Origin: a virus
Reading direction: 5' to 3' (one strand)
Virus record (IMG/VR): IMGVR_UViG_3300048839_001890
Span: 1-31,702 of that record
Length of the DNA stretch: 31,702 nucleotides
Positions 12,509 through 30,721 of the stretch are shown piece after piece. A program made the translations under genes and the position numbers. The notes beneath the pieces are model-generated. The model was not told the DNA's origin and ran no database searches. It saw nothing but the letters and a program-made list of their open reading frames with translations. Within the stretch, counting starts at the first letter, position 1. Each line of letters begins with the position of its first letter.

Positions 12509-13420
12509 GGAGGGGGTTCTCCTCGATGGCTGAAGGACAAGGGTGCGTGAAGCGGTGGCGGTGGCGGCCGGCTTCGGGGCCGGCCGGTCGAGCATGGCGG
12601 TGAGATCGGCGAGCGCCTGGTCCAGGCTGCCGAGCTGGTCGGCGAAGCCGGCATCGATGCCGCGCCGGCCGCGATAGACGGCGGCCTCCGTCGCCCGGAC
12701 GGCGTCCGGGCTCAGGCCGCGGTTGCGGGCGACGAGCGCCACGAGCTCGTCGTGAAGGGCGTCCACATCGGCCTGGATGTCGGCGACGGCTTCGGTCGAG
12801 AGGGGGCTGTGCGGATTGCCCTCGACCTTCTTCCGCCCGGCATGGATCAGCGTCCAGGCATGACCGGCCATGGCATCGGCGCCGCTCTCGTCGACATGGA
12901 CGGCGACGATGCCGACCGAGCCCACCTCGGCGGTGCGGCTCAGGTAGAGCCGGTCGGCGGCGCTGGCGATGGCGAAGCCGGCCGAGAGGGCAGACTCGCT
13001 CGCCACCGCCCAGAGCGGCTTGCCGCTCTCAGCCCGCAAGGCCGTGAGGCGCTCGACCAGATCGAGCAGGCCGCCGACCTCGCCGCCGGGCGAGTCGAGT
13101 TCGAGGAGAACGGCACGTGCCGACGGTTCGGCGAAGGCCGCGCCGATAGTGCCACCAAGCGTGCCGTAGTCGGTCGCACCAAAGAGGGCCGAGAGCCAGT
13201 CGCCGCGGCTGACCAGCGGCCCGACCACCGGCACCACCGCGATGAAGCTGTCGGTCAGGGTGAAGCCGTGGGTGGCATGCCGATCGCCGACGCTGGCCAG
13301 CGGGATCGTCGATCGAGCGTCGAGCGTGCGACCCACGGCGAGCAGGGCATCGATCGCCCGTGGTGCGAGCGCCAATGGCCGGCCGGCGAGCCGGGTCAGG
13401 ACAGGATGGTGCGACGTCAT
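12083..13420 (-). CDS. Prohead protease, S49 family (gpC-like)
   Basis: 445 residues starting MTSHHPVLTRLAGRPLALAP. The ClpP/crotonase-like S49 core is visible: AVLLELDSPGGEVGG, the nucleophile region VASESALSAGFAIASAADR, EVGSVGIVAVHVD, and a candidate catalytic lysine in HAGRKKVEGNPHSPLS. Such proteases mature the prohead in lambda. The C-terminal ~140 residues are Pro/Ala-rich then helical and correspond to a nested scaffold. Start at 13420 is 7 nt after the portal stop and follows GAGG; the frame stays open further upstream (to 13636) only as an overlap with the portal gene. Confidence 0.9.
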   Translation of the reverse strand: MTSHHPVLTRLAGRPLALAPRAIDALLAVGRTLDARSTIPLASVGDRHATHGFTLTDSFIAVVPVVGPLVSRGDWLSALFGATDYGTLGGTIGAAFAEPSARAVLLELDSPGGEVGGLLDLVERLTALRAESGKPLWAVASESALSAGFAIASAADRLYLSRTAEVGSVGIVAVHVDESGADAMAGHAWTLIHAGRKKVEGNPHSPLSTEAVADIQADVDALHDELVALVARNRGLSPDAVRATEAAVYRGRRGIDAGFADQLGSLDQALADLTAMLDRPAPKPAATATASRTLVLQPSRRTPSMTSETDTIVEDAVPAEPEAPATEPSDTAEGKPASTAPPVAPVQPAAPEPSPGDTAERLRAEYAEIAAVAAQAGRLGIAIDAADAMARGLKPEALRRSVLDALSQRAEASAVVAAAPPAPTAGDSPIVRRARERAATANAKA

Positions 13421-13427
13421 GCGAGCC

Positions 13428-14900
13428 TCAGTCGGCGGGTGGTGCGGGGTTCGGCTGGGCCTGATCGTCCGGCGGGATCGGCTCGGGCCGTGCGCCGGTG
13501 AACGAAAGACCGAGTCCGCGCTCCCGCTCGCGGTCGCCGGCGATCTCGGCGTCGACCTGGTCGGCGTCGTAGCCGCGCTCGGCCAGCGCCTGGGTGCGGC
13601 TCTTGAGGCCCGCCTCGATCTGCTCGATCTCGGCACGGGCGTCCTTCAGCGGATCGACCCAGTCCCACTTCGGCGGCAGCCAGGAGCAGGCGATATGCTC
13701 GCGGCGGCGGGTCTCGTAGTCGGGGAGATCGAGGGCACCGGCCATGACCGCGGTGTCCAGCCAGCGGGCCCAGACCCGCCGGCAGATCTGCCAGACCATC
13801 ACCGCGTGCTGGTAGGCCTCGACCCGGCGGCGGAACTCGAGCAGCGCCAGCCTGGAGTTCGAGTAGTTGGCCTTGAGCATGTCGTTCGACAGGTAGGCAT
13901 ACGGCAGCCCGAGTGCTGCCGAGACCTGCAGCAGGGTGCGGTACTGGAAGGGCTCGTAGGTCTGGCCGACATCGGCGGGTGCGGAGGTCTGCACCTCCTC
14001 GCCGGGCTCCAGCATGACGATCTGGCCCGGCTGCAGGTCCATGGTGCGCTCGGCCCCCTCGTCGCTCTCGGCCATATCGAACGGCTCCGCCGGTGCCGGC
14101 GTGGTGATGAAGAGCGCGTGCATCGCCGCCACCTTCTTGCGGTCGAGCTCGGCGTCGTCGTATTGGTCGAGGAGGAACAGCTTGACGATGCCGGGGGCGA
14201 AGCGGGAGACGCCCCTGAGCTGGCCCGCATCCACCGGGTCGATCACGTGGATCACCTCGGATGCCGGCACCCGCACCGTCTCGCCTGGCAGGCCCGGATC
14301 GGTCACGTCGCCCGGATGGCGGCGCAGGAAGTGGTAGGCGACCCGCCTGCCGATGCGGTCGAGCTCGATGCCCTGGCGGATCACGTTGCCACCCGGCAGC
14401 GACTCGTTGCGATTGAGCGGCAGCATCTCGGATGGGATCATCTGCAGCTGCAGGGGCACGGTGAGCCCGTCCTCGCGGCGGCGCGGTCTGAAGCGGAGGA
14501 ATACCTCGCCGGCGATGAACACCTCGCGTGCGGCCCGGCGCTGCTGACCGTAGAAGTCGGTGAACCCCTCGGTGTCGCTCTCGTCGGTCCAGTCGAGCCA
14601 GAGCCGCTGCACCTCTGCCTTTAGGTCGGCGTCGGCGATCAGCGACGACGGCTTGATGCCGTCGCCGACGACGTTGCCGGCCCAGCTCTCGATGGAGTTG
14701 GCGGCATAGCCGTTGTTGCGCACCAGCCACCGCGCCCGCGCGGTGATGTCGGCGCCGGCTGCTGCCACCAGCGTGTTGAGATGCGCCCGGCTCGGCTGGA
14801 AGTGCCGCAGCCGCCGCGACGCCTCGCCGGCCTCGAAGCCGCCGATCAGGGCGCCGACGCGCCGGCGCCAGTGCTGCACCATACCCAGCATGCCGTTCAA
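13428..14900 (-). CDS. Portal protein (lambda gpB family)
   Basis: 490 residues forming the dodecameric portal at one head vertex, through which DNA passes. Family features visible: RHFQPSRAHLNTLV early, ARARWLVRNNGYAANSIESW (residues ~55-75), GVSRFAPGIVKLFLLDQYDD, and the wing/stem segment YAYLSNDMLKANYSNSRLAL. The C-terminus is a Pro-rich tail. The start overlaps the stop of the gpW-like connector gene (ATGA). Length is near the family norm of ~500. Confidence 0.93.
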   Translation of the reverse strand: MNGMLGMVQHWRRRVGALIGGFEAGEASRRLRHFQPSRAHLNTLVAAAGADITARARWLVRNNGYAANSIESWAGNVVGDGIKPSSLIADADLKAEVQRLWLDWTDESDTEGFTDFYGQQRRAAREVFIAGEVFLRFRPRRREDGLTVPLQLQMIPSEMLPLNRNESLPGGNVIRQGIELDRIGRRVAYHFLRRHPGDVTDPGLPGETVRVPASEVIHVIDPVDAGQLRGVSRFAPGIVKLFLLDQYDDAELDRKKVAAMHALFITTPAPAEPFDMAESDEGAERTMDLQPGQIVMLEPGEEVQTSAPADVGQTYEPFQYRTLLQVSAALGLPYAYLSNDMLKANYSNSRLALLEFRRRVEAYQHAVMVWQICRRVWARWLDTAVMAGALDLPDYETRRREHIACSWLPPKWDWVDPLKDARAEIEQIEAGLKSRTQALAERGYDADQVDAEIAGDRERERGLGLSFTGARPEPIPPDDQAQPNPAPPAD

Positions 14901-15109
14901 AGTCCCTTGGCCGCCCGGGTCCGGACGATCCGCCGCCGAGACCCCGCCTTCGTCTCGGCGATGCGCCGCTCGAGGTCGCCCAGAGCCGCCGCCATCTCGG
15001 CATCGGTCGCATAGGTGATGCGCCGGCCCTCGATCTCGACCGTGCGCACGCCACGGAAGCGGGCGGCGAGCAGCGCTTCGTGCCGCGCCGTCATCTCGTC
15101 CAGGGTCAT
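14897..15109 (-). CDS. gpW-like head-tail connector
   Basis: 70 residues, MTLDEMTARHEALLAARFRG. Small size, the central VEIEGRRITYATDAEMAAAL hairpin and the basic C-terminus (AGSRRRIVRTRAAKGL) are the hallmarks of gpW, which joins the packaged head to FII. It lies between terminase large subunit and portal, as W does between A and B in lambda. It is 4 nt from the terminase stop and overlaps the portal start. Confidence 0.88.
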   Translation of the reverse strand: MTLDEMTARHEALLAARFRGVRTVEIEGRRITYATDAEMAAALGDLERRIAETKAGSRRRIVRTRAAKGL

Positions 15110-19406: not shown

Positions 19407-19715
19407 CTACATGATCGCTCCTGTGTCGCCTGAGACGCGCCTGAGGCTTTGCTTGGCCGCCGCCAAGCGGGGAGTTGCCTTCGCATGACGCGGCTCCGTG
19501 CGCCGAGCGCGGATTGCCTCGAACACGCGCCGCAGCGCGTAGCTCCGGGCGGTCGACACCGCCGTGAAAATTACTCCAATCGCGAGAGCGTCCGCGACGC
19601 GCCCCGGCAAACCGAACCACGGGAAGACGATCAGCTGTGTAAGCACGGCGACGCCATAGCCGACGGCGACGTTCGTCACCGCCTCGACCAGCGACATGAG
19701 CCTCGACTGCTTCAC
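19407..19715 (-). CDS. Small two-helix membrane protein (DUF7220-like)
   Basis: 102 residues starting MKQSRLMSLVEAVTNVAVGY from a GTG codon. It has two hydrophobic helices (roughly residues 12-33 and 41-57) followed by SYALRRVFEAIRARR and a basic tail. I recall this pattern in phage proteins of alphaproteobacteria annotated as DUF7220. The GTGA start overlaps the stop of the methyltransferase gene, so it is translated from that mRNA. Function unknown; both termini probably cytoplasmic. Confidence 0.65.
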   Translation of the reverse strand: MKQSRLMSLVEAVTNVAVGYGVAVLTQLIVFPWFGLPGRVADALAIGVIFTAVSTARSYALRRVFEAIRARRTEPRHAKATPRLAAAKQSLRRVSGDTGAIM

Positions 19716-21013
19716 GTGGCGACCCGCTCCGCCTCCAGCTCACCAAACGTCCGCCCATCGCCTTCCAGCGTGGCAGCCCCGCCCGTCCAATCCTGCCAGC
19801 GCGTGACGATCACATCGACATAACGCGGATCGAGCTCGACCAGCCGGGCCTGCCGGCCGGTCTTCTCCGCCGCGATCAGGGTCGAGCCCGATCCGCCGAA
19901 CAGATCCAGCACGATGTCGCGCCGCTTGCTGGAGTTCCTGAGCGCCCGCTCGATCAAGGCCACCGGCTTCATCGTCGGGTGCAGGTCGTTCTTGACCGGC
20001 TTGTCGAAGTGCCAGACATCGCCCTGGTCCCTGGCGCCGCACCAGTAGTGCTCGGCACCCTGCGGCCAGCCGTAGAGGATCGGCTCGTACTGCCGCTGGT
20101 AGTCGGCACGGCCGAGCGTGAAGGTGTTCTTGGCCCAGATGATGAAGGTCGACCACTTGCCGCCGGCGGCGGTGAACGCCGCCTGGAGGGTGTGCAGCTC
20201 CGAGCTGCTCATGGCGATGTAGACCGCACCCTTGGTGACGGTGAGGATGTTGGTGCAGGCGTCCTGCAGAAAGGTCCCGAAGCTGTCACCGAGCGCGTCG
20301 TTGAGGATTCGCCGGTCTTTGCCGCTCTTCCCGGACGCTACCGCTCCGCTACTCGAGCGCGGCTTGTTCTTGGCCGAGTTGCCATAGTCGACGTTGTAAG
20401 GCGGATCGGTCCAGGCCATGTCGGCGAGGGAGCGGGCGAGCACGCGCTCGACGTCCGTCAGGATGGTGGCATCGCCACAGAGCACCCGGTGATTGCCCAG
20501 CAGCCAGAGATCGCCGGGCCTGGAGATCGGCTCGACCGGCGGCTCCGGCACCTCGTCCTCGGCACCCTCGCTCTCGCCCCCGGCAGGTGCGAGCAGCGCC
20601 TCCAGCTCGCCGGCGTCGAAGCCGAGCAGATCGAGATCGAAGGTCTCGTCCCGAAGCCAGGCCAGCTCCTCGGCGAGCAGGGTCGCATCCCACCCCGCAC
20701 GCAGGGCCAGCTGGTTGTCGGCGATCACATAGGCGCGCTTCTGCGCCGGCGTCAGATGGCCGAGCCGGACCACCGGCACCTCGGCCAGGCCCAGCTCACG
20801 GGCCGCCATCAGCCGACCATGCCCGGCGAGGATGCCGTCCGCCTCGTCGACCAGGATCGGGTTGGTGAAGCCGAACTCGACCATCGAGGCTGCGATCTGC
20901 GCCACCTGGTCGGCGCTGTGTGTCCGGGGGTTGCGCTCGTAGGGCCGCAGCCGGTCGATCGGCCAGAGCTCCAGCCGCTCGGCCAGGGCGGTGAGGGCGG
21001 TCGTCTCTGGCAT
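19712..21013 (-). CDS. ParB-like domain / beta-class DNA methyltransferase fusion
   Basis: 433 residues. The N-terminal ~100 residues form a ParB/Srx-like domain (LRPYERNPRTHSADQVAQIA; GHGRLMAA at 64-71). A methyltransferase follows, with the catalytic DPPY at 203-206 preceding the SAM-binding DLFGGSGST (370-378), plus HPTMKP (345-350). DPPY-before-FxGxG is the order of beta-class amino-methyltransferases making N6-methyladenine or N4-methylcytosine. Such orphan fusions are common in prophages and may protect phage DNA from restriction. No cognate endonuclease is nearby. ATG at 21013 is chosen since the upstream open frame runs through a repeat-rich control region. Confidence 0.9.
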   Translation of the reverse strand: MPETTALTALAERLELWPIDRLRPYERNPRTHSADQVAQIAASMVEFGFTNPILVDEADGILAGHGRLMAARELGLAEVPVVRLGHLTPAQKRAYVIADNQLALRAGWDATLLAEELAWLRDETFDLDLLGFDAGELEALLAPAGGESEGAEDEVPEPPVEPISRPGDLWLLGNHRVLCGDATILTDVERVLARSLADMAWTDPPYNVDYGNSAKNKPRSSSGAVASGKSGKDRRILNDALGDSFGTFLQDACTNILTVTKGAVYIAMSSSELHTLQAAFTAAGGKWSTFIIWAKNTFTLGRADYQRQYEPILYGWPQGAEHYWCGARDQGDVWHFDKPVKNDLHPTMKPVALIERALRNSSKRRDIVLDLFGGSGSTLIAAEKTGRQARLVELDPRYVDVIVTRWQDWTGGAATLEGDGRTFGELEAERVAT

Positions 21014-21016
21014 GAT

Positions 21017-21157
21017 TGCGAACCTGCGAACTGCGCACCTGAGTGCGAACCTGGACCGTGGTGCGCACCCGAGGTGCGCAGGACCAGAAACGGCAAAAGC
21101 CGCCAAACTGGCGGCTCTCGGGGCGGCGGGTGCGAACCTGGTGTGCGAACTGCGAAC
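21017..21157. repeat. TGCGAAC repeat cluster upstream of the methyltransferase gene
   Basis: Six exact TGCGAAC copies (starting at 21017, 21025, 21044, 21131, 21144 and 21151) plus TGCGCA variants. Two variants form a perfect 8-bp inverted repeat TGCGCACC-CGA-GGTGCGCA at 21062-21080. The copies fall in two groups around a terminator-like hairpin. This looks like an operator array controlling the methyltransferase gene, which starts at 21013, or a protein-binding site such as a ParB-like target. Confidence 0.7.
21095..21116 (-). terminator. Intrinsic terminator, minus strand
   Basis: Read on the minus strand: AGCCGCC, loop AGTTT, GGCGGCT, then TTT continuing from the last stem base (T-run at 21095-21098). 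A 7-bp GC-rich stem with a short T-run. It would stop transcripts coming from the DUF6456-like gene before the methyltransferase promoter region. Confidence 0.6.
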
Positions 21158-21289
21158 CCGGATTCCCGGGCTGTCTGTAGCGAAGTCCCGGGCCACCGCC
21201 CCCCGCATACACTTCGGCACAGGAAGGACCCGTTGATTTTCAATGGCTTGGCCGGATGCCGCTCAATGCCGGCACCCCTGAACACACGA

Positions 21290-22715: not shown

Positions 22716-23288
22716 CTAGTGGGTCGCCGATGATGCAACATCAACCTTTGGACGAAAAAAATGCGTCCTTAAAACCGTCTGAATATCCTCCAATCCATCG
22801 GATGACAATGAAGAAACAAGTTGTGCACGGTCCTCGACAAATTCATTAATCTTCGTGCTATACATTTGATTTAAAAATGCCACAGCACCAAACCGAAATC
22901 GGTCATCTATTTTCGGAAAATAGAAAAGCCGACTGATTTTTCGTTTCCCCATGTTGGCAAGCCAACTTAAGCATTTGTCTCGCCCATATCTCTGATGAAA
23001 GTCGCATACCCAAATCTCAAACTGAAGAAGCGGACATATCAAAATGTCATCGTTATATGGTCGGATATTTGATTGGTCTGCGTCACACTCATGCGTTAAG
23101 ACGTACACCCGCCCTTCCACAGTACGAAATTTGCGTTCATCCGGCAAGTAAAGCGGATATCGCACTTGATCATAGATCAACCCTCTGCCCAAAGCGAAAT
23201 GATTTTCGGTCACATAGAAGTCTGTTTCTGAAACAGTTAAATGTCTATTAATGAAATTAAAATACTCATCAATAGAGTATGTCGACAT
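22716..23288 (-). CDS. Unknown protein, third gene of the TIGR04255 operon (190 aa)
   Basis: Starts MSTYSIDEYFNFINRHLTVS. It is A+T-rich like its two upstream partners and unlike the flanking phage genes. Visible features: a beta-rich centre with YVLTHECDADQSN (residues ~62-74) and DDILICPLLQFEIWV (79-93). A helical C-terminus ends in FFRPKVDVASSATH. The THECDxxxSN-then-ICPL layout is reminiscent of small barrel proteins but I cannot name a family. It starts 12 nt after the 83-aa gene, so all three are probably one transcript. Possible effector or immunity factor; this is speculation. Confidence 0.65.
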   Translation of the reverse strand: MSTYSIDEYFNFINRHLTVSETDFYVTENHFALGRGLIYDQVRYPLYLPDERKFRTVEGRVYVLTHECDADQSNIRPYNDDILICPLLQFEIWVCDFHQRYGRDKCLSWLANMGKRKISRLFYFPKIDDRFRFGAVAFLNQMYSTKINEFVEDRAQLVSSLSSDGLEDIQTVLRTHFFRPKVDVASSATH

Positions 23289-23299
23289 TATATGTAACT

Positions 23300-23551
23300 C
23301 TAATCAATAACGTCAACTGATGCAAGCAACAGATCTACGAATCGGCGGCTATCCGGTTCTGAAACGAACCCAGTTGGCTCATATGGTCTTTCTGTTATAT
23401 TGCCTCCTGATCGGGCACTAACGTACTCCAAACTACCAGTTGGCACCTCCCAGCCAATGGGCTGGCTATCAGAAACCCGAGGCACAATCGTAGAGATCTG
23501 AATATTGATCGATGATGCGCTCTCCTCCAAGCAGAAATTCATCCTAGTCAT
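23300..23551 (-). CDS. Unknown protein, second gene of the TIGR04255 operon (83 aa)
   Basis: Starts MTRMNFCLEESASSINIQIS and ends RRFVDLLLASVDVID. The ATG overlaps the stop of the TIGR04255 gene by 8 nt, and the frame ends 12 nt before the third gene. The frame is open further upstream, but only as an overlap with the preceding gene. The centre (PIGWEVPTGS; SARSGGNITERPYE) is polar; the C-terminus forms one short helix. No family recognised. Tight spacing to both neighbours supports a functional three-gene unit. Confidence 0.6.
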   Translation of the reverse strand: MTRMNFCLEESASSINIQISTIVPRVSDSQPIGWEVPTGSLEYVSARSGGNITERPYEPTGFVSEPDSRRFVDLLLASVDVID

Positions 23552-24299
23552 AGCCTTCCCATTCCTCTGTAATGGCATCCAGGACATCGCCGGGGATAAG
23601 GGAAAAGAATTCGCGCTTCTCAAATCCGTGCGCTGATTCCATCCAATCCAAAATATCCTCCAAACTCTTAGACGCGAAGCCGGCCGGTGTTCCCACATCA
23701 ATGTCCACAAGCGCTCTGTAAGGAACATTCGGCGCGCCAGTAACAAAATCCGGAGAAGACATTTTTATATTTGCGATATGATTATCTCCAGAGGTCCTTA
23801 TAAAGTGTAAATTATATGGAGGCGCGAGTCTTGTGCCGTTACTCTGACTAATCTTATATGAAAGATCAGCCACACTTGCAATCTTATGATCTTCTTCATT
23901 CAGAAGATTAATATAGCGGAATCCTAAACGAATTGCCCTAAAATCGCTTATTTCCTTTACAAGATAACTCAGTTCATGGCCGATTTCGCGTCGGAAGCTG
24001 TCCCATCCGGGATATGGGGCAAGGAGATGATAGGAAAATACATTGGAGCCGATCTTAGCAACACGGTTCTCCTTACGCTGGCGTAACTCGATTGTCGCTT
24101 GAAATCGCAGGCTAGGATCAGCTTCCCGCATCGGGTCAGGTATGTTCGCAATGGGAAGTCGCGACTGACTTGCCCCCTTCCATGTGGGACTCATTACCAA
24201 GCGCCCTACGACCACCTCCGCGACGTCCGAACGCTCAAATCGAACCTCGCACAGGGCCTCTATGATGGCGTCCTTTTTCAATCGCTTAGGGATACGCAT
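23544..24299 (-). CDS. TIGR04255-family protein (first gene of island C)
   Basis: 251 residues from ATG 24299 (MRIPKRLKKDAIIEALCEVR); an upstream in-frame ATG at 24338 would add 13 residues without similarity. The N-terminal LKKDAIIEALCEVRFE, the Q-rich strand RFQATIELRQRKENRVAKIG and the later AIRLGFRYINLL fit TIGR04255, a sporadically distributed family of unknown function. The middle DIDVGTPAGF and the C-terminal AHGFEKREFFSLI also fit. A+T content is well above the phage backbone. The gene heads a tight operon with two unknown proteins, between the replication block and the DUF6456-like gene. A defence or toxin-antitoxin role is inferred only from location and distribution. Confidence 0.75.
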   Translation of the reverse strand: MRIPKRLKKDAIIEALCEVRFERSDVAEVVVGRLVMSPTWKGASQSRLPIANIPDPMREADPSLRFQATIELRQRKENRVAKIGSNVFSYHLLAPYPGWDSFRREIGHELSYLVKEISDFRAIRLGFRYINLLNEEDHKIASVADLSYKISQSNGTRLAPPYNLHFIRTSGDNHIANIKMSSPDFVTGAPNVPYRALVDIDVGTPAGFASKSLEDILDWMESAHGFEKREFFSLIPGDVLDAITEEWEGYD

Positions 24300-24765: not shown

Positions 24766-25362
24766 TCATCGGCTCAAGTCCGCGATCGGCACGCCCGCCA
24801 GCCAGCTATCGTGTTCGGCCTCGAGGTTCGGCTTGCCGCCGGGGATGATGCGCCAGCCGCGCGCCTCGACCACTTTCACCAGTTCCAGAGGGATGCCGGC
24901 CGGCGCCCGGATGCTCGCCCGACTGCCGTAGGTGTTGACGGTGGCTCCAGCCGCCACGAGGCGCTGGAACAGTGAGCCGGAGGCGGGTGCGAGCGACGGA
25001 CGCCACCGGGCAGACTCGGGTTCGGGCTGAGGCGCAACGTCCTCGGCCTTGCCCTGCCAGTCGGCTGGGTCGGTAGCCTCGGTAGCCTTTTGGTTTTTTG
25101 CGAGGCTACCGGATTCCTCCTTTGCTTTCAGGCTGGTAGCCTCGGTATCCTTGGTAACTTCACTAAATAGTAGGTCGCGAGAGAGATTTTCCGGATCGCC
25201 GCCCTCTGTGTCCGTTTTCGCCCGACCTCCCGCATTTTCGTGGCTACCGCGGCTGTTGAGGCTACCTCTTTGATTTGAAACGACTTTTTCCGTAGCCTCG
25301 CCGTTTTGGGTGAGGCTACCGCGGCTACCGGCACGCTGGAGCAGCAGGTCTTTCAACCCCAT
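24766..25362 (-). CDS. Replication-block protein whose gene carries the repeat cluster (198 aa)
   Basis: Starts MGLKDLLLQRAGSRGSLTQN (ATG 25362, one nt after the helicase stop; an ATG at 25416 overlaps the helicase). Residues ~10-120 are low-complexity and polar, with repeated GS(R/L/H) and EATE/KATEATD units. These come from a DNA repeat read in both orientations, so they probably reflect DNA constraint rather than a protein repeat. Residues ~125-198 look folded (FQRLVAAGATVNTYGSRASI; LVKVVEARGWRII). The layout resembles lambda O, where origin iterons lie within the replication gene. Function of the folded domain is unknown. Confidence 0.7.
   Translation of the reverse strand: MGLKDLLLQRAGSRGSLTQNGEATEKVVSNQRGSLNSRGSHENAGGRAKTDTEGGDPENLSRDLLFSEVTKDTEATSLKAKEESGSLAKNQKATEATDPADWQGKAEDVAPQPEPESARWRPSLAPASGSLFQRLVAAGATVNTYGSRASIRAPAGIPLELVKVVEARGWRIIPGGKPNLEAEHDSWLAGVPIADLSR
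25071..25330. repeat. GGTAGCC/GGCTACC repeat cluster, candidate replication origin
   Basis: Eight exact copies of the heptamer in mixed orientations (starting near 25072, 25081, 25104, 25135, 25242, 25260, 25314 and 25323), plus degenerate ones (GGTATCC at 25144, CGTAGCC at 25291), within 260 bp. Many extend to GAGGCTACCG. A+T-rich tracts lie between them (around 25087-25100, 25160-25172 and 25262-25290). The cluster is directly downstream of the primase and helicase genes. Confidence 0.7.
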
Positions 25363-25363
25363 G

Positions 25364-27196
25364 TCACGCTTCCAGCCGCTCAGGGTTGATGACGTAGTAG
25401 CGCCGATTGACGCCACCGAACTTGCGTTGCTGCTGCATTCGGCCTCCGCTGCCTGGCTCCAGCGCCCCGCATTCCTTCAGGACGTCGGTGACGGTGGACA
25501 GTTCAAAGCCGGTCGTGGCCTCCTTCAGCGCCGCGCCGAGGAAGTAGTAGAGGCGCACAAACGTGGCGTCCTTGCCGTCGCCCCGGGCCACGTCCGCGCG
25601 GTAGCCTGCCCGGTCCCGCGTGTGGCGTTCGTCGCTTTCGAAGCGCAGCTCAGCGCTGGTGCCGTCTTCGATGAACCGGCTTTCGCCGTGACGGTCGAGG
25701 AAGTCCCGAACCGCTTCGCGGATTTTGCGCGGCTCCTGGTCGCCAGCGCCGCGGAACGACTTCCACGCATCGAACGCGACGATTGCCGCGTCGATCGCCG
25801 CGCCGTCCGGCCAGCCGGTGAGCCCATATTCGGTCGCCAGCTCGCCCGCCATGCCGATCAGCGCGCAACGTGCCGCCGCTCGGCCCTCCTGCCCACTGTG
25901 CACGGCAAGCGCGGGAATGGACTTCGCGATTTCCAGCATCTCGCCGAAGTCGCGATCGTCGCGCGTGAGCTTTTCGAGGAACGCTCGCCCAGCGGCGCCG
26001 TAGTTTTCTTTCGCCGCCCGCTTGATCGCGTCCGACAAGGCGCGCCCCGATGCGTAGCCGTGCAGCTCGTCGAAGCACCCGTGCCTGCGATTGTCGGCGC
26101 GCAAGTCCAGGAGCCGCACACTCTGGCCCGCCTTCGACGCCATGCGCCCCGCGTGCATGGTGGCCTCGAGGCTCTGCTCGCCGGTCGAGAACACGAGCGT
26201 TCGCCAGCGCTTCGGCGGTCGGCTGGCGCCTGTCCTGGTAGCCCTGGATTTGCCAACGCCGTTGGTGAGCATGTACGCAATTGCTCCCGCCTCGCGCGGG
26301 TCGACCTCGCTCATTTCGTCCATGCACAAGATCAAGTCGTTGTGCTGCTCGGCCACGCCCTCGACACCGTTCGATGTGGCCCGCCACGACCGTTTGAAAT
26401 CCGGCCCGCCGAAGGTGGATCGTGCGGCCTCCAGGATGGTGGTCTTGCCCGAGCTGGAGCTGCCGACGAAATTGAAGCCACCGCCTTCTGTGTGCGTCAG
26501 GTCCATCAGCGGTGCGGCGAACGGCGCCGACATCCCGAACTGCATGAGCGGGTTGCCGATCGCGAGCTGGGCCACGTTGCTGCGCCAGCTGTCGACCGTG
26601 CCGGCCACGCCGTGCGCTCTGCCGATCCTGCCACCGTCCTGGAAGACGACGCTGCCGGCATCTGGCCCGATGACGCCGTCGGGCAGGACGAACGCGCCCG
26701 ACCCTGCCCACCCGGTGCGGCTGGTGCAGAGCATCCGCTTTTTCGGGGTCTTGTGCTGAAGGTACTCGCCCAGCTCGGCACGATGCCGCGGGCTGATCGC
26801 GAGCCCCATGGACAACAGCTCGCGCCGCAGGTCTGCGCCGTCGGCGCACAGCAGTTCGTAGGGCATTGCCCACAGCCGCTTATTGCCCTCGCGATCGATG
26901 AAGCGGAGCAGCACGCCGAAGTCCTGGCCCTCGCCGTTGCGGGTAAGTGCCTCGAGGTGGACGGGTCCGCTGATCCATGTGTTGACTGGCGCCGGCGGCG
27001 TGTCCTTCGTCTCTTTCGACATGGAATGCCGGTAGACGCCCGGCCGGTAACGCTTGCCGCCGTCGGTGACCGGCTCGTCATAGACACCCCAACATGGCCG
27101 CGACTTCTCGGGCGGGAAGGCGAGCGGCGCCGACGCCACCATTTCGTCGAAGTCGATGACCTCGGCTTCGGCCTCTTGTGCGGCCTCGGCCTTCAT
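25364..27196 (-). CDS. DUF927-type replicative helicase
   Basis: 610 residues. A P-loop GSSSSGKTT (residues ~245-253) and Walker B LILCMDEMSEVDP (~288-300) lie in a AAA-like core. The preceding AQLAIGNPLMQFGMSAPFAA and the later SLEATMHAGRMASKAGQSVR, then VRLLDL, are typical of DUF927 proteins, which act as phage and plasmid helicases next to AEP primases. The N-terminal ~150 residues (GVYDEPVTDGGKRYRPGVY and following) are the usual accessory region. The C-terminal ~100 residues resemble a winged-helix tail (TGFELSTVTDVLKECGAL; GGVNRRYYVINP). The start overlaps the primase stop (ATGA). It would unwind the prophage origin, likely the adjacent repeat cluster. Confidence 0.85.
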   Translation of the reverse strand: MKAEAAQEAEAEVIDFDEMVASAPLAFPPEKSRPCWGVYDEPVTDGGKRYRPGVYRHSMSKETKDTPPAPVNTWISGPVHLEALTRNGEGQDFGVLLRFIDREGNKRLWAMPYELLCADGADLRRELLSMGLAISPRHRAELGEYLQHKTPKKRMLCTSRTGWAGSGAFVLPDGVIGPDAGSVVFQDGGRIGRAHGVAGTVDSWRSNVAQLAIGNPLMQFGMSAPFAAPLMDLTHTEGGGFNFVGSSSSGKTTILEAARSTFGGPDFKRSWRATSNGVEGVAEQHNDLILCMDEMSEVDPREAGAIAYMLTNGVGKSRATRTGASRPPKRWRTLVFSTGEQSLEATMHAGRMASKAGQSVRLLDLRADNRRHGCFDELHGYASGRALSDAIKRAAKENYGAAGRAFLEKLTRDDRDFGEMLEIAKSIPALAVHSGQEGRAAARCALIGMAGELATEYGLTGWPDGAAIDAAIVAFDAWKSFRGAGDQEPRKIREAVRDFLDRHGESRFIEDGTSAELRFESDERHTRDRAGYRADVARGDGKDATFVRLYYFLGAALKEATTGFELSTVTDVLKECGALEPGSGGRMQQQRKFGGVNRRYYVINPERLEA

Positions 27197-28206
27197 CGTG
27201 CCGTCTCCCGCGCGAGAACAGCCCCGATGGTCCGGCCGATGTAATCCGGTCGGGTCGCCTTGCTGGTGTCGACGCCGAGCTTCTGGTCGAGCTTGACCAC
27301 CGCGAAGGCGATCAGCTCCTGCCAGTCCTCGAAATCGTGAATGCCGGCCCTGAGCAGCCCGCCGATAAAGGCGAAGTGCCGGCTGCTGCGGTCAGGATAA
27401 TCCCGCTCACCGGCCCATATCTCGCGAGCCACGGGCGAGTTCTTGATTGCCACAGCGATGCGCCGCTGCTCGTCTTCGGTCAGGTCTTTGAGCGCGACTT
27501 CGACGTGGATCGGCTCGACCGTCTCGACAACCGGCAGTTCGGCCGGCACCTCGACCGTATCGTCGAGCCCCTGCCGCACGCCGAACCGTCGTGCCGTCGG
27601 GTCGGATCCGCTCAGGATGATCGGTGCGGCCACATAGTGCGGCTGAACCGGGTTGTAGAGCGCCCGGTCGGCTGGCGCGTGCTGCAACCAGCCCTTGCAC
27701 TCGCCGTCGCTCACCGGCCGGCTGAGCCAGAACCAGAGCCGCACGTTGACGCCCAGCTTAATGCCTGCGCTGCTCGTAGCCTGCCACCAGCACGCGGCAT
27801 CGGCGAACTCGTCAGGCAAGAGCCCGATGACGTGCTCGACGCCCTCCTCAGGGTCAGTCGCGAAGTCCAGCCCGGCCGGTTCCGGGCATCCGTCCGCGTC
27901 GATAGCGAGCCATTGCCGAGGTTTGGCGGCGAAAGTCACCCCGTCGCCGTGCTCGGCCCTGTTGCTGAGCCGCCGGCTGTTCTCGGGGTCGGCATTCGGC
28001 AGCAGCTCGCCGCGGATGATGCACGCCTCGGGAATGCCCGCGGCCTTCTCGAGCACCCGCCTCATAACGGCGAAGCCGCCAACGTCGGCGTTGCGGACGC
28101 GGTAGAATTTGCCGGCGTTGTAGCCCCGGACAACGGCACGGTCGGAGATGGTCTTCGCCATGACTCCGGAGCGGGCAAGTAGAACGGTCATGGTGTCGGC
28201 GGCCAT
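27193..28206 (-). CDS. AEP-type primase / bifunctional replication protein
   Basis: 337 residues. The pattern of an archaeo-eukaryotic primase-like domain is present: WLAIDADG (residues ~99-106) with acidic metal ligands, CWWQATSSAG and VRLWFWLSRP (~135-160), and YVAAPIILSGSDP (~189-201). The C-terminal part (residues ~235-335) is helical. The gene is followed by the DUF927 helicase with a 4-nt overlap, a standard AEP-helicase pair in phages. The start is uncertain: ATG codons at residues 1, 6 and 16 are all possible and none has a strong ribosome site. It would synthesise primers at the phage origin. Confidence 0.75.
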   Translation of the reverse strand: MAADTMTVLLARSGVMAKTISDRAVVRGYNAGKFYRVRNADVGGFAVMRRVLEKAAGIPEACIIRGELLPNADPENSRRLSNRAEHGDGVTFAAKPRQWLAIDADGCPEPAGLDFATDPEEGVEHVIGLLPDEFADAACWWQATSSAGIKLGVNVRLWFWLSRPVSDGECKGWLQHAPADRALYNPVQPHYVAAPIILSGSDPTARRFGVRQGLDDTVEVPAELPVVETVEPIHVEVALKDLTEDEQRRIAVAIKNSPVAREIWAGERDYPDRSSRHFAFIGGLLRAGIHDFEDWQELIAFAVVKLDQKLGVDTSKATRPDYIGRTIGAVLARETAR

Positions 28207-28212
28207 CGCCGA

Positions 28213-28428
28213 TCAGGCCACCCGCCTGCCGCGCGTCGGGTTTGGCTTGCGCTCGCGGCGCTCAAGCCACGCGCGAACCGAATCGACCCGATACATACGC
28301 CGGCCGCCGATCAGCAGCGACGGCAGGCCGTCGGGTTGGTTCTCGTAGCGGTGGATGGTACGCCAGTTGACGCCCAGCTCTTCGGCGAGCGTTGGACGGT
28401 CAATGTAATCTTCGAGAATCTTGGCCAT
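28213..28428 (-). CDS. Excisionase-like / AlpA-type HTH DNA-binding protein
   Basis: 71 residues from ATG 28428 (MAKILEDYIDRPTLAEELGV). It has a MerR-like winged HTH: RPTLAEELGVNWRTIHRYEN, then GLPSLLIGGRRMYRVDSVRA and WLERRE with a basic tail. Proteins of this size act as excisionases or as transcriptional activators of excision and replication. It is first in the replication operon. AGGA lies ~9 nt upstream of the chosen ATG; an ATG at 28467 lacks support. A palindromic operator lies 60-95 nt upstream. Confidence 0.75.
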   Translation of the reverse strand: MAKILEDYIDRPTLAEELGVNWRTIHRYENQPDGLPSLLIGGRRMYRVDSVRAWLERRERKPNPTRGRRVA

Positions 28429-28491
28429 TTGGCGTTGTCCTGTCTGTGGTTGGACACCGCCTGCCAATATTCACATATTTTTTCGCACGTC

Positions 28492-29530: not shown

Positions 29531-30721
29531 TTAAGTCCTGCCTTTCATCGGCACCACCTCGCCGCTGCCCTCGACAGGCGACACGATGGCCCCTACGCGC
29601 TCTGTAGCGGCCCGCAGCGGGTCGTCGAACAGGTGGGCATATCGCGCGGTCGTCTGCGCCTGGGTGTGCCCCAGCAGCGCGCCGATGATGGGCAGGGACA
29701 GACCAGCGCTGGCGAGAAACGAGGCGTAGGAATGCCGCAGATCGTGCACGCGCACGCCCTCCAGCTTCGCCGCCCGACAGATCGCGGCCCAGTCGTCCTT
29801 GATCTCTCGACGATGCCCGCCGGTCCGGCTTGGAAAAACGTGTTCGCCCGTCTGGGCGATGCCGGCCAACAACTGCCGAGCCGGGGCGGACAGCGGCACG
29901 CGGTGCGCCTTCTTCTGCTTGGTGTGCGCGCTCGGCTTCACCCAGACGCCCGCCTCGAGGTCCAGATCGGCCCAACGCATTGCCAGCACCTCGCCACGCC
30001 GCGCACCGGTGAGCAGCAGCAGACGGATGATATTGGCCGATTGCTGGTCGCGGTGCTCGGCCAAGGCAGCGGTCAGCCGGGCCACCTCGTCACCCGCCAG
30101 GAAGCGCTCGCGCTTGTTCTCGGGGTTGCGCTCGATCCCCTTGGCCGGGTTGTCCGTCCGCCAGCCTCGACGGATGGCGATCGCGAACATCTTGGAGCAC
30201 AGCGCGACCACGCGGTTTGCCCGGATCGGCGCCGGCCGATCCCGTTTCTTGCCGGTCGTGATCTCCCGGTGCAGCCGGTCGATATCGGTGAACGTCACGT
30301 CCGCCACCTTGAGCCGGCCGAGCCGGGGCAGAACTTCCCTCTGCAACATTGCGCGGTCGTCGGCCTGGGAGCGCGCCCGCTTTTTCGGCAGGTGGTGCTC
30401 TGTGTATTCTTGGCACAGGTGCGCCACGGTCGACGCCGCACGCTCGGCCTGTTCCTCGGCCAGCGGATCGCGCCCGCTGTCGATCTCGCGCCGTAGCCGC
30501 TTGGCCTCGTCACGCGCGGCCTTCACGCTCCAAGCTGGGTGCTGGCCAATGGTGATCCGCCGCTCTCGGCCGCCCGTCCGATAGTTGAGCACGAACGCCC
30601 GCGCGCCCGCTGCCGTCACCCGAACGCCGAAGCCGGGCAACTCGGCGTCGTAGGTGATACGATTGCTCGATGCCGGCGCCCGCAGGGTCTTGATGATGCT
30701 GTCGGTGAGCCGCTGTCGCAT
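29531..30721 (-). CDS. Tyrosine site-specific integrase
   Basis: 396 residues. An N-terminal arm-binding/DUF4102-like domain is seen (ITYDAELPGFGVRVTAAGAR; RRITIGQHPAWSVKAARDEA). A core-binding SAM-like domain follows (~95-190), then the catalytic domain with R241 (LLTGARRGEVLAMRW), a candidate lysine near 271, H326-x-x-R329 (HDLRHSYASFLASAG), H352 (LLGHTQAQTT) and nucleophile Y361 (TARYAHLF). All catalytic positions are intact, so it should be active. It lies 161 nt from the tRNA-Leu fragment and reads away from it, as is usual for tRNA-integrating prophages. Confidence 0.95.
   Translation of the reverse strand: MRQRLTDSIIKTLRAPASSNRITYDAELPGFGVRVTAAGARAFVLNYRTGGRERRITIGQHPAWSVKAARDEAKRLRREIDSGRDPLAEEQAERAASTVAHLCQEYTEHHLPKKRARSQADDRAMLQREVLPRLGRLKVADVTFTDIDRLHREITTGKKRDRPAPIRANRVVALCSKMFAIAIRRGWRTDNPAKGIERNPENKRERFLAGDEVARLTAALAEHRDQQSANIIRLLLLTGARRGEVLAMRWADLDLEAGVWVKPSAHTKQKKAHRVPLSAPARQLLAGIAQTGEHVFPSRTGGHRREIKDDWAAICRAAKLEGVRVHDLRHSYASFLASAGLSLPIIGALLGHTQAQTTARYAHLFDDPLRAATERVGAIVSPVEGSGEVVPMKGRT

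Follow-up and report, generated by a model that had tools for sequence, protein, structure and literature searches.

In SaPIs, the gene of the Rep initiator is directly followed by an iteron origin, which Rep recognises through its C-terminal domain and apparently as two hexamers; the DUF927 protein Cch is related to Rep of SaPIbov1 (PMC7581432). In Gram-negative PICIs, the origin lies immediately 3' of the initiator gene and has an A+T-rich stretch flanked by two sets of iterons; pri-rep and ori of EcCICFT073 were tested on plasmids, where this arrangement drives replication, and the organisation of PICI origins is stated to be known from no other bacterial replicon (PMC6092414). The same paper also refers to the alpha protein of P4 and the ori that goes with it (PMC6092414). 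In SGI1, oriV has iterons immediately downstream of rep that are needed for replication (PMC7433901).

Here, we analysed a 31.7-kb stretch of viral DNA (31,702 nucleotides, IMG/VR record IMGVR_UViG_3300048839_001890; hereafter the window), in which an array of the heptamer GGTAGCC/GGCTACC follows the gene of a DUF927 initiator. Comparison with related sequences leads us to conclude that the array is very probably a replication origin of the SaPI/PICI type that lies within a gene and belongs to a temperate phage encoding its own head and tail. As in SaPIbov1 and the EcCICFT073 PICI, the proposed origin lies directly 3' of the initiator gene and consists of two opposed sets of short iterons. SGI1 resembles the window in having iterons immediately 3' of rep, but these are four 17-bp direct repeats with a DnaA box, they are intergenic, and the initiator is uncharacterised. 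The main features are as follows.

24766 to 25362, minus strand: proposed origin-hosting gene, 198 aa (ORF; homologue in locus L187)
25072 to 25329, no strand: proposed origin, 12-site iteron dyad, six sites per half (heptamer counts and mirror test)
25364 to 27196, minus strand: DUF927 replication initiator helicase, SaPIbov1 Rep/SCCmec Cch type, 610 aa (Pfam, PHROG, PDB profile, AlphaFold)
27193 to 28206, minus strand: primase-like protein, same operon, 337 aa (PHROG 16950, DNA primase, 1.3e-18; PHROG 3712, 5.1e-6)
28213 to 28467, minus strand: AlpA/excisionase-like helix-turn-helix protein (PHROG 66, 5.3e-10; HTH_17, 7e-4, below the Pfam cutoff)
29531 to 30721, minus strand: tyrosine integrase (Pfam, 1.8e-27; PHROG 1, 2.6e-69)

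The window encodes a terminase, head protease, major head protein, head decoration and head closure proteins, as well as a tape measure, minor tail protein, tail terminator and tail assembly chaperone, and is therefore a temperate phage equipped with head and tail genes of its own. Because the tape-measure gene ends at base 1, the tail genes that follow it lie off the contig, and the window may be a fragment. Capsid-forming PICIs have no tail genes of their own and depend on a helper; both a PICI and a capsid-forming PICI were ruled out by the tail genes found here besides terminase and capsid. The gene order primase-like, AlpA-like, integrase upstream of the initiator is also seen in phiAH14b, and EcCICFT073-type PICIs and the window share the order int, AlpA-like, primase, helicase. 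Unlike SaPIs and PICIs, however, this element carries its own terminase, capsid and tail genes, its proposed origin lies within a coding gene, the stretch between the iteron sets is less A+T-rich, and the iteron word is a different one. Among genomes with close relatives of the initiator, 23 of 26 have no terminase like that of the window, in line with most of these relatives belonging to other elements. One Accumulibacter MAG (locus L143, G025:C50:247-2166) encodes both a terminase 72% identical to that of the window and a DUF927 initiator that is 50% identical, which hints at the host group. Between the terminase and head protease genes, where a portal gene is expected, lies a large ORF (13417-15054) with no PHROG match at 1e-3.

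To describe the initiator, we relied on profiles and a structure model. The product of 25364-27196 matches Pfam DUF927 (4.6e-87) and a primase PHROG (6.9e-81), and its profile matches two PDB sequences, 8tch (SaPIbov1 initiator, 4.7e-32) and 5dgk (SCCmec Cch, 1.1e-24). The AlphaFold model (mean pLDDT 89) aligned over 466-468 residues with Cch 5dgk, the closest solved fold (Z 29.9), and with SaPIbov1 Rep 8tch (Z 27.1), the next matches being MCM helicases at about 13; by both sequence and fold, the protein belongs to the initiator family of the SaPIbov1 rep-ori system. A C-terminal winged helix is predicted at residues ~531-610, with helices at 554-560 and 566-575 and wing strands at 589-593 and 596-603, and this domain is the likely reader of the iterons. 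No complex of a DUF927-family initiator with iteron DNA was among the matches listed in the PDB structure search. The C-terminal domain of SCCmec Cch2 binds repeats downstream of its own gene, as we propose for the window, although Cch2 belongs to another helicase family and its iterons are three 5-nt repeats.

An earlier reading from the letters and ORFs alone (the sequence-only reading) had reported at least eight exact heptamers in both orientations within 260 bp, accompanied by A+T-rich tracts, in a gene that comes after a primase and a helicase gene. The count was confirmed, with eight exact copies in 258 bp (25072-25329; starts at 25072, 25081, 25104(-), 25135, 25242(-), 25260(-), 25314(-) and 25323(-)), and so was the gene order, the array gene following the primase-like and helicase genes. 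The A+T claim held in part: the surroundings of the array are richer than the window average of ~35%, but only modestly, at no more than 55% in 40-bp steps. The whole window has 12 copies of the word where 2.0 are expected, a number reached by no shuffle, and the array is its densest 7-mer cluster per 300 bp. When the local 350 bp were shuffled preserving dinucleotides, at least eight copies of any word occurred in 0 of 200 shuffles. No second GGTAGCC cluster was found across the 31.7 kb. Among the next densest short clusters of the window is one of GTTCGCA, present six times in 140 bp (21017-21157) near the start of a ParB-like/DNA methyltransferase gene (19712-21220).

Together with four imperfect copies (25144, 25153, 25251 and 25291), the eight exact copies make up a 12-site dyad, laid out as >> < >>> mirrored by <<< > <<, with 9-bp steps and six sites per half. 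Measured in gene direction from the DUF927 stop, five exact copies share one orientation (+35, +44, +98, +116 and +254) and three have the opposite one (+223, +277 and +286). All mirror pairs (35/286, 44/277, 67/254, 98/223, 107/214 and 116/205) share one centre, 25200/25201. With exact copies only, 6 of the 8 are mirrored at zero tolerance, which 2 of 2000 random placements reached, and the mirror sites of the remaining two are occupied by imperfect copies. The sites at +107 (3 mismatches) and +205 (2 mismatches) were called mainly from symmetry. Because there are six sites per half, the layout suggests one helicase hexamer per half. The sites, with offsets from the DUF927 stop, are listed below.

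25323 to 25329, minus strand: iteron 1, exact, +35
25314 to 25320, minus strand: iteron 2, exact, +44
25291 to 25297, plus strand: iteron 3, inverted, 1 mismatch, +67; position of the inverted copy of relatives
25260 to 25266, minus strand: iteron 4, exact, +98
25251 to 25257, minus strand: iteron 5, degenerate, 3 mismatches, +107; called from geometry only
25242 to 25248, minus strand: iteron 6, exact, +116
25160 to 25241, no strand: spacer between the iteron sets, mildly A+T-richer, candidate melting region
25153 to 25159, plus strand: iteron 7, degenerate, 2 mismatches, +205
25144 to 25150, plus strand: iteron 8, 1 mismatch, +214
25135 to 25141, plus strand: iteron 9, exact, +223
25104 to 25110, minus strand: iteron 10, exact, opposite to its neighbours, +254
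25081 to 25087, plus strand: iteron 11, exact, +277
25072 to 25078, plus strand: iteron 12, exact, +286

We compared this layout with that of relatives. A nucleotide search of phage records with the array region gave no match, and scans of viral contigs and genomes with single proteins (the initiator or the small ORF) gave nothing close; alignment queries were needed, and with these we gathered initiator relatives from viral contigs and bacterial genomes, keeping 131 at <90% identity. In 72 of 129 scorable non-redundant relatives, the 350 bp at and after the initiator stop contain a repeat reached by no shuffle, and at least four copies of one 7-mer were present after the stop in 85/129 vs 9/129 for an equal length inside the gene. 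The 57 relatives that failed the strict array test include some with weaker or displaced arrays and others with none visible. The iteron words vary (TGATACC, GGTAACA, TGTAACA, GGGAACA, TGGAACG and others), while the step between same-strand neighbours up to 30 bp apart was 9 bp in 149 of 226 pairs, a count unselected for spacing. For half-sites and core words we used 70 loci in which words were limited to xGNNNCx and one 9-bp doublet was required, so the constant G and C of these words are partly there by construction. A half-site template of 0, 9, 32 (inverted), 63, 72 and 81 was matched at 6/6 positions in 14 of these loci and at 5/6 in 26. The sequence-only reading had called the array a likely phage origin, a claim that now gains comparative support from the position and geometry of arrays after the initiator in dozens of relatives and from the covariation of initiator and iteron described below. 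In some relatives that lack an array after the initiator, five to seven short repeats of similar letter make-up occur far away (relative to the DUF927 stop, L009 at -5.1 kb, L011 at -5.8 kb, L082 at +3.3 kb, L043 at +0.6 kb and L055 at +2.4 kb); these could be an origin, integrase arm sites or operators.

All eight exact copies in the window lie inside the ORF 24766-25362 on the minus strand, whose ATG is 1 bp past the TGA of the DUF927 gene. In 55 of the 70 loci, the array lies wholly inside an ORF that begins at the initiator stop; an MxLxxLL-like start was found in 38 of the 70, with varied C-terminal parts thereafter, and the start MGLKDLLLQR of the window ORF fits this series. The N-terminal half of the 198-aa protein is the translated array, and a conserved domain makes up the C-terminal half, starting near codon 118. 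As had been read from the sequence, the five coding-strand copies are translated as Gly-Ser (GGT AGC) and the three inverted copies as Ala-Thr (GCT ACC). GC3 is 0.50-0.68 in the array part, 0.85 in codons 119-198 and 0.82 in phage genes, and the iteron codons are rare in the phage: GGT is used in 5/5 cases vs 14.7% usage, and GCT in 3/3 vs 7.9%. In L122 (Giesbergeria anulus), the same heptamer occurs at +38, +47, +71 (inverted), +113, +122 and +131 and is read in another frame, giving VAPVAP and not GS. Between L062 and L068, whose initiators are 95.7% identical, a 10-bp deletion removes one iteron and breaks the frame; one of the two ORFs has 254 codons and the other 81, and the remaining array is intact.

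The array also switches with the initiator. The phage of L187, whose terminase is 87% identical to that of the window, has a homologue of the hosting gene with 64% identity over residues 101-196, yet in the N-terminal half of this homologue CAATCCA occurs nine times, as two opposed sets, and the gene upstream of it encodes another, primase-type initiator without detectable DUF927 similarity. L267 and L269 have a third iteron word and an initiator 62% like that of L187. Judged from these loci, the array goes with the initiator and not with the ORF. In L187 (684-1373) and L267 (5440-6300), where the C-terminal half of the hosting gene is retained, the two iteron sets have an alternating CA/GT tract between them.

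It could be argued that the repeats are a feature of the protein, in which Gly-Ser and Ala-Thr segments are selected for a flexible or binding N-terminal domain. The ORF is indeed open throughout, its same-strand copies are all in one reading phase, and in many relatives the shared MxLxxLL start is followed by regular repeats such as DTPDTP or VTPVTP. We nevertheless consider this the least probable of the alternatives, as the inverted copies give other residues, the same DNA is translated in a different frame in L122, L187 swaps the N-terminal half while keeping the C-terminal half, 15 of the 70 arrays are outside such an ORF, and loss of an iteron breaks the frame in L068. A protein repeat kept with the DNA heptamer lost, the case named beforehand as refuting, was not seen among the relatives. 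The earlier suggestion that DNA and not protein is being conserved agrees with the same heptamer in another frame and with the array switching with the initiator, and the comparison supports the view that selection maintains the DNA word and its spacing rather than the peptide. ORFs directly after DUF927 initiators may be partly translated origins, and their N-terminal repeats should therefore not be annotated as protein domains.

Next, we asked which parts of the initiator vary with the iteron. A Mantel test of whole C-terminal domain distance against iteron distance gave no signal beyond the helicase core (partial r -0.01). We replaced it by a per-column test, a second look at the same data, in which initiator residues were compared with the iteron core for pairs within bins of helicase-core identity. 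The strongest of 591 initiator columns was residue 590 (z 10.9, with relatedness partially controlled), followed by 597, 557, 495 and 588; four of these top five are within the last 66 residues (the C-terminal region after 550/wing), and the per-column score averaged 0.01 across the helicase core. Because the whole-domain test was null, the specificity signal rests on single columns. Gln590 occurs in 3 of 69 initiators, exactly the three with the core GCTAC (the window, L122 and L077), which have at most 44% mutual identity; sisters of L077 at 84-85% identity have the core GTAAC and Leu590. The GATAC core goes with Phe590 in 11 of 13. Held-out loci contained no new Gln590 or GCTAC case, so the Gln590/GCTAC rule gained no independent confirmation from them; in the same loci, 7 of 7 new Lys590 initiators, several of them interrelated, had GG-starting cores, as in the training set. 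We tentatively propose that the DUF927 wing is an iteron code (Gln590 for GCTAC, Phe590 for GATAC, Lys590 for GG-starting cores), that words drift or switch by single wing changes while the 6+6 geometry stays fixed, and that phages (the window, L187 and L267) swap initiator and origin as a cassette before a conserved domain; we rate this as possible, a little short of probable. If wing code and cassette exchange are true, replicon identity changes while the origin-encoded peptide is free to change. The covariation of wing and iteron also offers a way to predict DUF927 origins from protein sequence.

In the mechanism that we propose, the DUF927 helicase would bind the iterons through its C-terminal winged helix, with the beta-wing at ~588-597. 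Two hexamers would probably assemble head to head, one per six-iteron half-site, open the spacer at ~25160-25241 and, after loading themselves, act as replicative helicases; synthesis may be started by the primase-like protein encoded next to the initiator. Translation of the origin, as the N-terminal half of the following gene, would be incidental: the peptide need only stay open for the conserved C-terminal domain to be made.

Binding by the initiator, taken by itself, would suit a different role equally well: a repressor, or the initiator itself, could bind the array as an operator or silencer and so control operon transcription or copy number, with the origin elsewhere. Plasmid iterons also act in copy control, for which handcuffing has been discussed (PMC7433901). 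GC skew, suggested by the sequence-only reading as a check on the proposed origin, did not bear it out: no sign change or inflection was found at the array, as would fit an operator. However, the conserved placement is after and not before the initiator, the sites form two opposed groups of about six, in EcCICFT073 such an arrangement drives the replication of plasmids, and the window has no second iteron cluster; we regard an operator as very unlikely. A P4-type origin, in which the array would be one of two required cis regions (ori and a distant crr), seems to us slightly less likely again. The initiator helicase-primase of P4 likewise uses short repeats at two separate sites. Against a P4-type origin, the initiator of the window is of the SaPIbov1 type and no second heptamer cluster occurs in the 31.7 kb, though a site beyond the left end of the incomplete contig is possible. 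We therefore favour a SaPI/PICI-type origin at the array.

Lambda, which had been cited as placing its iterons in the same way, is a looser parallel. Its iterons are translated within a gene of the replication region, as in the window, but they lie in the initiator gene O, whereas those of the window are located past the initiator gene, as they are in SaPIs and PICIs, and within the gene that comes next; moreover, lambda O recruits the host helicase DnaB, while the window initiator would itself be a self-loading MCM-like helicase. Origins of this type are already known. As far as we searched the literature, the new elements are the use of such an origin by a phage that encodes head and tail itself, the position of the origin within a half-conserved gene, the exact 6+6 dyad, and the wing/iteron covariation. 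A type of origin known experimentally from satellites is thereby placed within a gene of a phage that encodes its own head and tail, and the two six-site half-sites of the dyad make the assembly of self-loading helicase double hexamers at origins directly testable.

Finally, we scanned viral contigs for GGTAGCC doublets. None was found with a DUF927 neighbour; the clear arrays adjoin other initiator types. Arrays with 9-bp steps and both orientations lie at the 3' end of initiators from other families, or overlap it, in L382 (5638-5809; VapE-like with Prim-Pol), L338 (2525-2833; DUF5906) and L403 (8319-8530; DUF5906), and the word seems to have been adopted independently beside these families. 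In L333 (8800-8999) and L354 (1304-1622), GGTAGCC arrays are ~1.2 kb from a large gene, which in L354 encodes a terminase. In the window itself, GC drops to 0.44 at 23001-24000, vs ~0.65 around it, beside genes matching PHROGs 5464 and 4575 (unknown function); this segment looks like a recent insertion.
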